64,000 nt of DNA from Chryseobacterium sp. Leaf404 (GTDB lineage Bacteria; Bacteroidota; Bacteroidia; Flavobacteriales; Weeksellaceae): contig NZ_LMQM01000010.1 of the NCBI RefSeq assembly GCF_001424145.1, forward strand, positions 72,833 through 136,832, written 5' to 3'. Below are positions 10,148-13,309 of the stretch, in pieces. The translations under genes and the position numbers were made by a program. The notes beneath the pieces were generated by a model. The model saw only the letters and a list, made by a program, of their open reading frames with translations. It made no database searches and was not told the DNA's origin. The number at the start of each line of letters is the position of its first letter. The stretch's first letter is position 1.

Positions 10148-11233
10148 ATGGAAAATTTTATAGTATCTGCAAGAAAATACCGCCCACAGCAGTTTGACAC
10201 TGTAGTAGGGCAGTCTCACATTACAGATACTCTGGAACACGCCATTGAAGAAAATCAGCTTGCTCAGGCTTTGTTGTTTTGTGGGCCAAGAGGTGTGGGT
10301 AAAACGACCTGTGCCAGAATTCTTGCCCGCAAAATCAATGAAAAGGATGGTTCCGTTTCAGAAGATGGTTTTGCTTACAATATTTATGAGCTCGATGCCG
10401 CTTCAAATAACTCTGTTGATGATATTCGGGAACTTATTGATCAGGTAAGATATGCACCGCAAGTCGGTAAATACAAGGTTTATATTATAGATGAGGTTCA
10501 CATGCTGTCTTCTGCAGCATTCAACGCATTTTTGAAAACTTTGGAAGAACCTCCTGCTCACGCCATTTTCATTTTGGCAACGACAGAAAAGCATAAGATT
10601 ATTCCAACTATTCTTTCCAGATGTCAGATTTATGATTTCAAGAGAATTACAATTCTTGATATTCAGGAACATTTAAGACAAATCGCCAAGAAAGAGTCTA
10701 TTCAGTATGAGGACGACGCACTATATCTTATCGCCCAGAAAGCTGATGGAGCTTTGAGAGATGCACTTTCTATTTTTGACAGACTTTCTACGTTTTCCCA
10801 TAAAAATATTACTCTGGCAAAAGCTGCTGAAGTGCTTAATATTTTAGATTACGATCAGTATCTGAATATCGTGGATTTGGCCAGAGAAAACAATATTCCA
10901 GCGGTGCTTTCAGCATTTAACGAGATTGTAAAAAGAGGATTCGACTCTCATACTTTTATAGCCGGTCTCGGTAATCATTTCAGGGATTTAATGATGGCAC
11001 AAAACGCGTCAACTATAGATTTAATTGAGGTTGGCGAGCAGACGAAATCCAAATTTGCAGAGCAGGCAAAAAGCTGGAGTCCGCAATTGCTGATCGATGG
11101 AATTGAAATCTGCAACCACGCAGATATCAACTACAAAAATTCTAAAAACCCAAGACTTACTGTTGAAATCGCTTTGATGCAGCTGTCTTCACTTACCGAT
11201 GGGGCAGATGTTCTTAAAAAAAAAAGTTCTTAA
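10148..11233 (+). CDS. dnaX: DnaX zero-frame, gamma-length product
   Basis: Reading the zero frame without a shift gives 361 residues ending LKKKSS and TAA immediately after the slip site. It keeps the complete AAA+ and collar domains and loses only the C-terminal tail. That is what a gamma subunit looks like: able to load clamps but unable to bind polymerase and helicase. It would be the default product here, the reverse of E. coli, where gamma needs the shift. Confidence 0.6.
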   Translation: MENFIVSARKYRPQQFDTVVGQSHITDTLEHAIEENQLAQALLFCGPRGVGKTTCARILARKINEKDGSVSEDGFAYNIYELDAASNNSVDDIRELIDQVRYAPQVGKYKVYIIDEVHMLSSAAFNAFLKTLEEPPAHAIFILATTEKHKIIPTILSRCQIYDFKRITILDIQEHLRQIAKKESIQYEDDALYLIAQKADGALRDALSIFDRLSTFSHKNITLAKAAEVLNILDYDQYLNIVDLARENNIPAVLSAFNEIVKRGFDSHTFIAGLGNHFRDLMMAQNASTIDLIEVGEQTKSKFAEQAKSWSPQLLIDGIEICNHADINYKNSKNPRLTVEIALMQLSSLTDGADVLKKKSS

Positions 11234-11847
11234 TACTGGCGCCTTTTCTGGATGAAAAACTGGAAATAAAAAAGCCAACCCCGGAAAAAAGGCCTGAACA
11301 GGTAAAAACAGAGATCCCTGAAGTAAAAATTCCTTCAGCGGAAATCAGTGTGCCAAAAAAAGTAGCAAAACCTTTGGCAAGACCTGCTTCGAAAGTTGGT
11401 TTGAGTATTTCTTCTTTTATGAATCAAACCGAAACTGTAAAGAAAGAAGAAGTTGTTGCTACTAAAAATGAAGATTTACCAAAAAATCATTTCACAGAAA
11501 CCGATCTCCAGGCGGAATGGAATCTTTTGTTAAAACAGTTACAGAACAAAAATGTCTTTGTCTTTAATGCAATAAAAGGTTTTAGACTTACAAAAAAGGA
11601 TGAGAATGTGATTGAAGTATTGTATCCTTCTGATTCTGCAAAAACTGAATTTGACAAAATCAGTGGTGAATTTTTTAATCATTTTAAAACGAAAGTTCAT
11701 AATTTTTCGATAGAAATCGAGTACAAAAGAGACTTTGAAAATCTTAAGGTTGAAGTTTTAACCAAAAGAAAGATTTACGAAAAATTTATAGAAAAAAATC
11801 CGCTTCTGAGAGACCTTGATGATCTGATGAGGTTTGATTTAACTTAA
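10148..11847 (+). CDS. dnaX: DNA polymerase III gamma/tau; tau requires a -1 shift at an A10 run
   Basis: Clamp-loader ATPase subunit. Walker A GPRGVGKTT is at residues 46-54, the DEVH Walker B near 115, and FLKTLEEPPAHAIFILATTE plus LSRCQIYDF follow, as in all DnaX. The four Cys of the usual zinc module after Walker A are absent. The zero frame stops at 11233, just after ten A (11216-11225). The -1 frame is open from the A-run to 11847 and reads FLILAPFLDEKLEIKKPTPE and onward to LLRDLDDLMRFDLT, the tau tail. Joined, they give about 566 residues. The site allows ribosomal -1 frameshifting or transcriptional slippage, known for dnaX of E. coli and Thermus. A homopolymer sequencing error is the alternative. 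Confidence 0.85.
11216..11225 (+). other. A10 slippery run in dnaX
   Basis: Codons run CTT AAA AAA AAA AGT TCT TAA. Ten A allow P- and A-site Lys-tRNA to slip by -1, or RNA polymerase to add an A. Either change puts the ribosome in the open tau frame (AAA AAG TTC TTA). With nine A the frame would stop after about ten codons. Confidence 0.65.
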
Positions 11848-11861
11848 ATTTTATATATTTG
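11833..11861 (+). promoter_or_regulatory. Promoter for leader peptide and DAHP synthase gene
   Basis: TTTG at 11833-11836 and TATATTTG at 11854-11861 are 17 nt apart, matching the Bacteroidetes consensus; both straddle the dnaX stop. Transcription would begin near 11868, giving an mRNA leader of about 360 nt before the DAHP synthase start. Confidence 0.6.
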
Positions 11862-11944
11862 TTGAACTATTTTCCTTACGGAGATAGATAAATTTAAAAA
11901 ATAAATCATAATAAACTGATTTACGGGTGTTATTAAAATTTTAA

Positions 11945-12088
11945 ATGAAAAATTTTTCAATTATAACTCTGTCTTCTAGCTCATCTTTTGGGTGTCAGGC
12001 TACTGAAATTATCAGTGGTTATTTTGGTTTGTTGGCAAATTATTATCGAAATTTAACTGGTTATTACCGTCATTATTGGTATAGCTAA
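11945..12088 (+). CDS. Tyr/Phe/Trp-rich leader peptide (candidate attenuator)
   Basis: 47 codons. After MKNFSIITLSSSSSFGCQAT the peptide continues through SGYFGLLANYYRNLTGYYRH to a final YWYS, so the last 22 residues include seven Tyr, one Phe and one Trp. It begins about 77 nt after the predicted transcription start and ends 141 nt before the first enzyme of aromatic amino-acid synthesis. This is the layout of amino-acid-sensing leader peptides such as pheL and trpL. A hairpin plus eight T follow. Function is inferred from composition and position. Confidence 0.65.
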   Translation: MKNFSIITLSSSSSFGCQATEIISGYFGLLANYYRNLTGYYRHYWYS

Positions 12089-12106
12089 ATAAATTTCTTT
12101 TCCTAA

Positions 12107-12153
12107 AAACAAAACTTATTCTACTGAGTTTTCTGTTTCCTTAAATTTTTTTT
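12107..12153 (+). terminator. Candidate attenuator hairpin
   Basis: AAACAAAAC (12107-12115) can pair with GTTTT-ct-GTTT (12128-12138). After seven more bases comes a run of eight T (12146-12153). The stem is AU-rich and weak. A second AT hairpin (AATTATAA/TTATAATT) lies near 12173-12192. Their position 19 nt after the leader stop suits ribosome-controlled attenuation. Confidence 0.35.
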
Positions 12154-12229
12154 AACGGCAATTTCGAAAAGAATTATAACGCATTTATAATTTGAATTTT
12201 CATGTATTTAAAACAAAAAAATAATTAAT

Positions 12230-13309
12230 ATGACACTTAAAGATTTAAACAGCAATTGGATCGAGGATCTGTCTCAACCGCTTATGATTGCAGGCCCCTG
12301 CAGTGCTGAAAGTGAAACGCAAATGCTGGAAACGGCAAGACGTATCAGAGAAACCAACGTTAATGTGCCAATCTTCAGAGCGGGAATCTGGAAGCCCCGC
12401 ACCAAACCAAACGGCTTTGAAGGGGTAGGGGTGATTGGTCTCAACTGGCTGAAAAAAGTAAAAGAAGAATACGGTTTTAAAACTGCAACAGAAGTGGCCA
12501 ATGCTCATCACGTTGCTGCAGCTTTGGAGGCTGATGTTGATATTCTCTGGATTGGAGCGCGTTCTACGGTAAATCCGTTTACGGTACAGGAAATTGCAGA
12601 AGCTTTAAAGGGAACTGAGAAAACAGTTTTGGTAAAAAATCCTGTAAATCCTGATCTAGCCCTTTGGATTGGTGCATTGGAAAGACTTTTAGGTCAGGAT
12701 ATTAAAAATCTTGGTGTTATTCACAGAGGTTTTTCAACCTACCAAAAAACGAAATACAGAAATAATCCCAACTGGCAGATTGCTTTGGATTTTAAAAGTC
12801 AATACCCAAAAATTCCGATGTTAATTGATCCTTCACACATTTGTGGAAACAGAACCGGCTTGGCAGATGTAACTCAGGAGGCATTAAATGTAGGTTACCA
12901 AGGTGCAATCATTGAAAGTCATTCTAATCCTGACGAAGCCTGGAGCGATGCCTCACAACAGATCACACCGGAAGTTTTGGCAGATTTAATCAACAATCTT
13001 AAGGTAAGAAATTCAGATTTTTCTGGTTTCGAAGGTGAAATGGGAAGGCACAGAACCTTAATTTCTGACCTGGATTTTCAGATTATTGAAATGCTTTCAC
13101 AGAGAATGAAAATTTCAGAGAAAATTGGTAAACTTAAGAAAGAGAATGACATCGCTATTTTTCAGCCCGCAAGATGGAAAGAAATTACAGAATATGCTAC
13201 TCAGAAAGCTACTGAGACTGGGATGTCTCCGGAATTTATAGAGAAAATTTTTAAATCTGTGCACGAAGAATCTATTGAAGTGCAAAACAAAGTGATGATT
13301 GACAAATAA
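12230..13309 (+). CDS. aroG: Bifunctional DAHP synthase / chorismate mutase
   Basis: 359 residues. Residues 1-260 are a KDO8P/DAHP-synthase barrel with MIAGPCSAESE, FRAGIWKPRTKPNGFEGVG, VLVKNPVNPD, IHRGFSTYQKTKYRNNPNW and LIDPSHICGNR. Residues 270-359 are an AroQ-type chorismate mutase: RTLISDLDFQIIEMLSQRMK through KIGKLKKEND to SVHEESIEVQNKV. The enzyme joins phosphoenolpyruvate and erythrose 4-phosphate and also converts chorismate to prephenate. Such fusions allow feedback control by the mutase domain. It is probably regulated by the leader peptide upstream. The symbol is approximate; type II fusion genes are also named aroA or aroF. Confidence 0.93.
   Translation: MTLKDLNSNWIEDLSQPLMIAGPCSAESETQMLETARRIRETNVNVPIFRAGIWKPRTKPNGFEGVGVIGLNWLKKVKEEYGFKTATEVANAHHVAAALEADVDILWIGARSTVNPFTVQEIAEALKGTEKTVLVKNPVNPDLALWIGALERLLGQDIKNLGVIHRGFSTYQKTKYRNNPNWQIALDFKSQYPKIPMLIDPSHICGNRTGLADVTQEALNVGYQGAIIESHSNPDEAWSDASQQITPEVLADLINNLKVRNSDFSGFEGEMGRHRTLISDLDFQIIEMLSQRMKISEKIGKLKKENDIAIFQPARWKEITEYATQKATETGMSPEFIEKIFKSVHEESIEVQNKVMIDK

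Follow-up and report, generated by a model that had tools for sequence, protein, structure and literature searches.

We identified a putative attenuator, a leader sensed by the ribosome, ahead of the DAHP synthase gene in Chryseobacterium sp. Leaf404. Comparison of related genomes establishes a translated, conserved peptide, conserved aromatic codons and promoter, and covariation in helices H12, P1, P3 and P5; we put the probability of the attenuator reading at about 0.8. DAHP synthase catalyses the first step towards phenylalanine, tyrosine and tryptophan. The window, the whole 64,000-nt stretch of DNA that was analysed, contains the following features, given by window position:

11833–11861, + strand: Bacteroidota-type promoter with TTTG at 11833–11836, 17 nt, and the −7 box TATATTTG at 11854–11861 (TAnnTTTG conservation; consensus as quoted in PMC7366714).
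11945–12088, + strand: leader peptide ORF of 47 codons with an aromatic-rich 3' third (conservation; pN/pS).
11998–12020, + strand: hairpin P1 inside the ORF (11998–12006 with 12012–12020), a possible pause hairpin (−10.0 kcal/mol, z −4.5).
12048–12055, + strand: arm 1 of helix H12, codons Arg-Asn-Leu here and Arg-Asn-Phe in relatives (H12 −15.2 kcal/mol, z −4.6).
12066–12081, + strand: inner hairpin P2 (ACC..GGU), nested in H12 over the codons Tyr-Arg-His-Tyr-Trp (95.8% of cells paired).
12090–12097, + strand: arm 2 of H12, just past the stop codon, the switch segment common to H12 and P4 (pairing tests; folding).
12107–12138, + strand: predicted hairpin P3, the AT hairpin of an earlier sequence-only reading (cognate arms pair better).
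12139–12158, + strand: weak hairpin P6, a candidate terminator, followed in relatives by CA and T6 (−1.6 kcal/mol here; 76% of cells paired).
12166–12175, + strand: region 3, the complement of the post-stop segment 12092–12102 (helix P4, candidate antiterminator; complementarity).
12171–12193, + strand: AU hairpin P5, overlapping region 3 (z −3.5 here; 90% of cells paired).
12230–13309, + strand: DAHP synthase with C-terminal chorismate mutase, the putatively regulated gene (Pfam DAHP_synth_1, PF00793, 2.3e-37; CM_2, PF01817, 2.5e-23).

The leader ORF runs from ATG to TAA and encodes the 47-residue peptide MKNFSIITLSSSSSFGCQATEIISGYFGLLANYYRNLTGYYRHYWYS. As the sequence-only reading had noted, its last 22 codons hold seven Tyr, one Phe and one Trp, including two Tyr-Tyr pairs and Tyr-Trp-Tyr at the end. 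When the intergenic region was shuffled by dinucleotide, 37 of 5,000 shuffles gave an ATG frame of at least 30 codons with at least nine aromatic residues in the last 22; judged on sequence the frame is beyond chance, and its conservation across species is decisive. The −33 TTTG and the −7 box predict a transcription start at about 11867, in agreement with the mRNA leader of some 360 nt proposed earlier. The TAnnTTTG box, which is the Bacteroidota −7 consensus as given in PMC7366714, lies upstream of 114/114 leaders, with TTTG 15–23 nt before the box in 79 of them. A second, proximal promoter in TTTTTTG..TATAAT was rejected by eye, as it has no TAnnTTTG and its spacing to P5 varies. The two Pfam matches confirm the earlier assignment of the next gene as a DAHP synthase joined to a chorismate mutase. 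This gene is the single match of its type in the genome (class II enzymes left out), and its product is 95% identical to those of C. piscicola and C. caseinilyticum.

Among 59 related genomes searched, the peptide occurs ahead of the DAHP synthase gene within the same genus, and the named loci with the leader are Chryseobacterium. We collected 118 distinct leaders in Chryseobacterium and two sister genera, nearly all of them about 140–175 nt from the DAHP synthase-chorismate mutase gene. In an even sample of 148 genomes of the taxonomic family searched with a leader HMM (cut-off E < 1e-9), all matches fell in three genera (coded g1, g28 and g51) and were just upstream of DAHP synthase wherever the place of that gene is known. 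Weak matches above 1e-4 in other genera, many with internal stops, look like chance on sequence grounds. Most other genera of the family lack the leader, and none was found before DAHP synthase in the other genera of the family and order that were looked at. The leader is missing in several of these because the upstream gene abuts DAHP synthase; in genus g45 the upstream gene ends about 20–50 nt before it, which leaves no room for a leader. Rfam covariance models gave no match of interest in the window and none in four relatives at the gathering score, and the literature on Chryseobacterium leader peptides yielded no relevant report.

The pN/pS ratio is 0.28 in the leader frame, as compared to 1.09 and 0.66 in the other two frames, and 0.22 in its last codons. 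By this comparison the leader frame is real and translated, under purifying selection in its own frame only. The start column reads ATG in 61 leaders, GTG in 25 and TTG in 6, and the consensus C-terminus is YYRNFRxYYRFYWYC. One Tyr column is conserved in 117/117 leaders (TAC 69, TAT 48), as is the Trp column (117/117), and Phe and Tyr interchange at several others. The common leader has 9–11 conserved aromatic codons, for Phe, Tyr and Trp. The sequence-only reading had called the leader Tyr-rich; this is true of the window leader, but its Tyr-richness is derived. As in an attenuator, a short translated ORF lies between promoter and gene (pN/pS, start column and promoter box), and its conserved control codons specify end products of the pathway that would be regulated. 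Alignment among Chryseobacterium and relatives, proposed earlier as a check, found the frame, the aromatic codons and the promoter conserved and covarying stems present, and the core proposal of a translated aromatic-codon leader that would control DAHP synthase survives this conservation test. Purifying selection on the peptide would also suit an ordinary small protein that has its own function and sits before the gene incidentally. We regard this as very improbable given its position just upstream of DAHP synthase wherever that place is known, its absence in most other genera of the family, the way its residues track the RNA helices and the alteration of the leader where prephenate dehydratase is gone.

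An R-scape-style GT-APC covariation scan with a tree-based null found no pair at E < 0.5 and was swamped by genus-level signal; cognate/non-cognate arm tests and pair counts were used in its place. Pairing was better between cognate arms than between arms exchanged across species, with p = 0.0002 for P1, H12, P3, P5 and P6 (relatedness not controlled) and p = 0.003 for P2. With all helices taken together, 87% of cells pair, as compared to 35–53% when the partners were slid. Mean folding z over 54 leaders was −3.95 for P1, −3.46 for H12, −2.5 for P3, −4.3 for P5 and −0.7 for P6. Double changes were seen at 5 of 6 counted pairs of P1 (53 leaders) and at four pairs of P6. In H12 the Arg-Asn-Phe codons AGAAAUUUCAG pair with CUGAAUUUCU just 3' of the stop codon (93% of cells paired). 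A C-G pair is replaced by U-A in 16/53 sequences via the third base of the Phe codon, the synonymous Phe codons TTC and TTT being matched to post-stop G and A. RNSEKK variants have the peptide frame-shifted in this stretch and keep both AGAARUUCAG and the H12 pairing.

The same variants bear on an alternative in which the leader is a TnaC-like arrest peptide, whose nascent chain would stall the ribosome on free aromatic ligand rather than its codons reading tRNA charging. The length of the conserved motif, with its non-aromatic Arg and Asn, speaks for such a peptide. However, the pairing of H12 and P2 explains the conserved Arg and Asn codons, Phe and Tyr interchange at several columns, the RNSEKK variants alter residues while keeping the RNA pairing, and the Phe codons are gone in five genomes without prephenate dehydratase. 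An arrest peptide therefore seems improbable, and we prefer a leader read through the charging of tRNAs.

The control codons lie in or next to the 5' arm of H12, a conserved helix that covaries, and the 3' arm of H12 can pair alternatively in P4, which is invariant; such an arrangement is the other mark of an attenuator. The duplex of region 2 with region 3 that forms P4 has a mean energy of −10.3 kcal/mol, as compared to −3.4 kcal/mol for shuffled sequence. Its invariance rules out P4 as a directly covarying helix, and it is proposed on complementarity. H12 and P4 are mutually exclusive, as the 1:2 and 2:3 pairings are in a ribosome-stalling attenuator. We infer the stalling, the H12/P4 switch, which way control runs, and what the output step is and where it lies. 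The RNA would start near 11867 and the ribosome would translate the leader. A shortage of charged Phe-, Tyr- or Trp-tRNA would make the ribosome stall in the aromatic run, which forms arm 1 and the loop of H12. H12 would then be blocked, and the post-stop segment would be free to pair with region 3 as P4, allowing expression of the downstream gene. When all three are plentiful the ribosome would finish and leave, H12 would form, P4 would be blocked and expression would be cut, most likely by an early stop of transcription around P6 and the T tract. Folding of partial transcripts predicted P3 and P6 in both the stalled and the unstalled state for most leaders, a point against this explanation.

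Two further aromatic leaders were seen in the same genome outside the window. Before trpE lies the leader peptide MINSVNRNWWWHSNSSSGLKLLSFC (L227:1279–1356), directly followed by a strong terminator; this WWW leader was found in 7/8 relatives examined, with a conserved SNSSSGL tail. Before tyrA lies the leader peptide MKVAAQNYYYPSEKFFG (L230:1329–1382), with a GC-rich terminator just before the gene, and this YYY leader was found in 10/12 relatives examined. No Phe leader was seen before pheA in 12 loci. With WWW at trpE and YYY at tyrA, sensing of Phe thus appears to sit at DAHP synthase. The trpE and tyrA leaders resemble the DAHP synthase (aroF) leader in being short control-codon ORFs just before a gene of the same pathway and genome, and differ from it in their single-amino-acid runs and canonical strong terminators.

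Downstream of the trpE and tyrA leaders the terminators reach −14.2 and −18.4 kcal/mol, as compared to −1.6 kcal/mol for P6. The sequence-only reading correctly placed an AU hairpin (12107–12138) beginning 19 nt past the stop codon and a T8 at 12146–12153. Its proposal that this hairpin (P3) and the T8 form a terminator ending near 12153 did not stand, as the pair is not a conserved element and the T8 sits in the loop and 3' arm of P6. The T6 that follows P6, further 3' than the T8, hardly varies across Chryseobacterium except in the window clade. Within that clade it is degraded, reading CAATTTCG or CAATTTTG; the leader is nonetheless kept. The interval from leader to gene has no strong intrinsic terminator, P6 being weak and neither the T8 nor the T6 site strong. 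A role for P4 as a classical antiterminator before the T tract is ruled out by the order of transcription, the 3' half of P4 being downstream of that tract. We give a classical terminator-based output of the aroF leader no better than even odds.

The same sensor might instead act through an output without an intrinsic terminator, for example Rho-dependent termination of RNA free of ribosomes after the leader stop, RNA stability, or translation control by a P4/P5 switch near the gene start. Such an output would fit the weak terminator hairpin in a genome whose trpE and tyrA leaders have strong ones. It would also fit P5, which is among the best supported hairpins yet has no T tract behind it, and the AAUU that P4 and P5 have in common. 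The near-invariant T6 after P6 outside the window clade is what a terminator would need, however, and no pairing to the gene start region was seen. We consider this a credible, if less probable, alternative to a terminator-type attenuator.

Prephenate dehydratase (PF00800) was present in 163 of 173 Chryseobacterium genomes and not found in 10, among them the genome of the window. Its absence suggests, on gene content, either phenylalanine auxotrophy or an unrecognised enzyme. The ten dehydratase-minus genomes have the tryptophan enzyme IGPS (10/10) and TyrA (9/10). In five of them, a single clade to which the window belongs, the last 16 codons of the leader contain no Phe, with Tyr and Trp kept. 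The window lineage has lost two conserved Phe codons with the Tyr and Trp codons and H12 kept, and as read from these codons its sensor is narrowed to Tyr and Trp. One dehydratase-minus genome, also without TyrA, has no leader, and two have leaders that are remodelled or scrambled and without Trp. A broken promoter box with loss of a conserved Tyr was seen in one dehydratase-minus leader and loss of a single Phe in one. G031, which is among the ten, keeps both Phe codons, a point against the association. In total, the leader had lost its terminal Phe codons, been remodelled or disappeared in 8/10 dehydratase-minus genomes. All 49 dehydratase-plus leaders examined were intact, keeping at least one Phe and the Trp, and 0/49 had lost both Phe codons. 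The leader of genome G325 (L238) has been recast as a peptide rich in Tyr, ..TYYCKNINDYCYQ, and behind it comes AAAGATATTCAATATCTTTTT, which is a hairpin plus T tract. The stretches of this genome looked at showed neither a trp nor a tyrA leader.

The association between dehydratase and leader has a Fisher p of 2e-8, but the tree needs only about four changes (losses). Among independent pairs, two went in the same direction, none in the opposite direction and two were undecided. That leader alteration tracks prephenate dehydratase loss is only suggestive from these sequences, because the losses are so few. Loss of the Phe codons and of the dehydratase in the window clade could be a coincidence of one branch combined with general decay. 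The small number of independent losses favours such a coincidence, as do G416 and G031, which keep Phe codons, and the missing trp and tyrA leaders of G325. Against it, no dehydratase-plus leader had lost both Phe codons, and the window clade has dropped the two Phe codons yet retained H12 and its codons for Tyr and Trp. We consider coincidence rather unlikely. We raise only tentatively the fuller reading that one leader acts as an OR gate for three aromatic amino acids, with its output set by an H12/P4/P5 switch rather than a canonical terminator and its codons tracking the end products that the species still makes. If true, pathway loss could be traced in the codons of the leader.

To our knowledge, leader-peptide control is little described in Bacteroidota. 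The enterobacterial attenuators pheL, trpL and others likewise have control codons for an amino acid of their own pathway in the 5' partner of a 1:2 helix, with an alternative 2:3 pairing. They differ in having a GC-rich 3:4 terminator and U tract before the gene; the Chryseobacterium counterpart is a weak candidate, and one leader would serve three amino acids. In Corynebacterium glutamicum, aroR is a leader with a Phe-Tyr-Phe run before the operon of the DAHP synthase gene aroF, for which ribosome-mediated attenuation was reported (Neshat et al. 2014; PMC11802643, PMC4046766), and AroR answers to Phe only according to a review (PMC11802643). Both leaders place Phe and Tyr codons ahead of a gene for DAHP synthase. 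In contrast to the one run of aroR, as those sources describe it, the Chryseobacterium leader has 9–11 aromatic codons including Trp, has overlapping helices and belongs to another phylum; a sequence relation is not expected. In the same phylum, leader-peptide attenuation was inferred for 5' RNAs upstream of amino acid operons in Flavobacterium psychrophilum (PMC9723704), and sORFs were described in long 5' UTRs of Bacteroides thetaiotaomicron (PMC7366714); the passages of these two papers drawn on here give no DAHP synthase leader. The aroF leader is ordinary in kind, as the comparison with aroR indicates, and new in family and anatomy. It offers a family of 118 leaders with natural sensor variants following loss of one pathway branch, next to the trp and tyr leaders that the genome also carries. 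That the sensed amino acid is determined by codon content is a directly testable prediction, and the weak terminator raises the question of how the output is set.

Elsewhere in the window, dnaX contains an A10 run at 11216–11225, at which its frame stops (..LKKKSS*); the remainder of the protein is encoded in the −1 frame (KKKFLILAPF..). The same arrangement occurs in six relatives, and for this reason it is probably a programmed slippage that would give two forms of the clamp-loader subunit.
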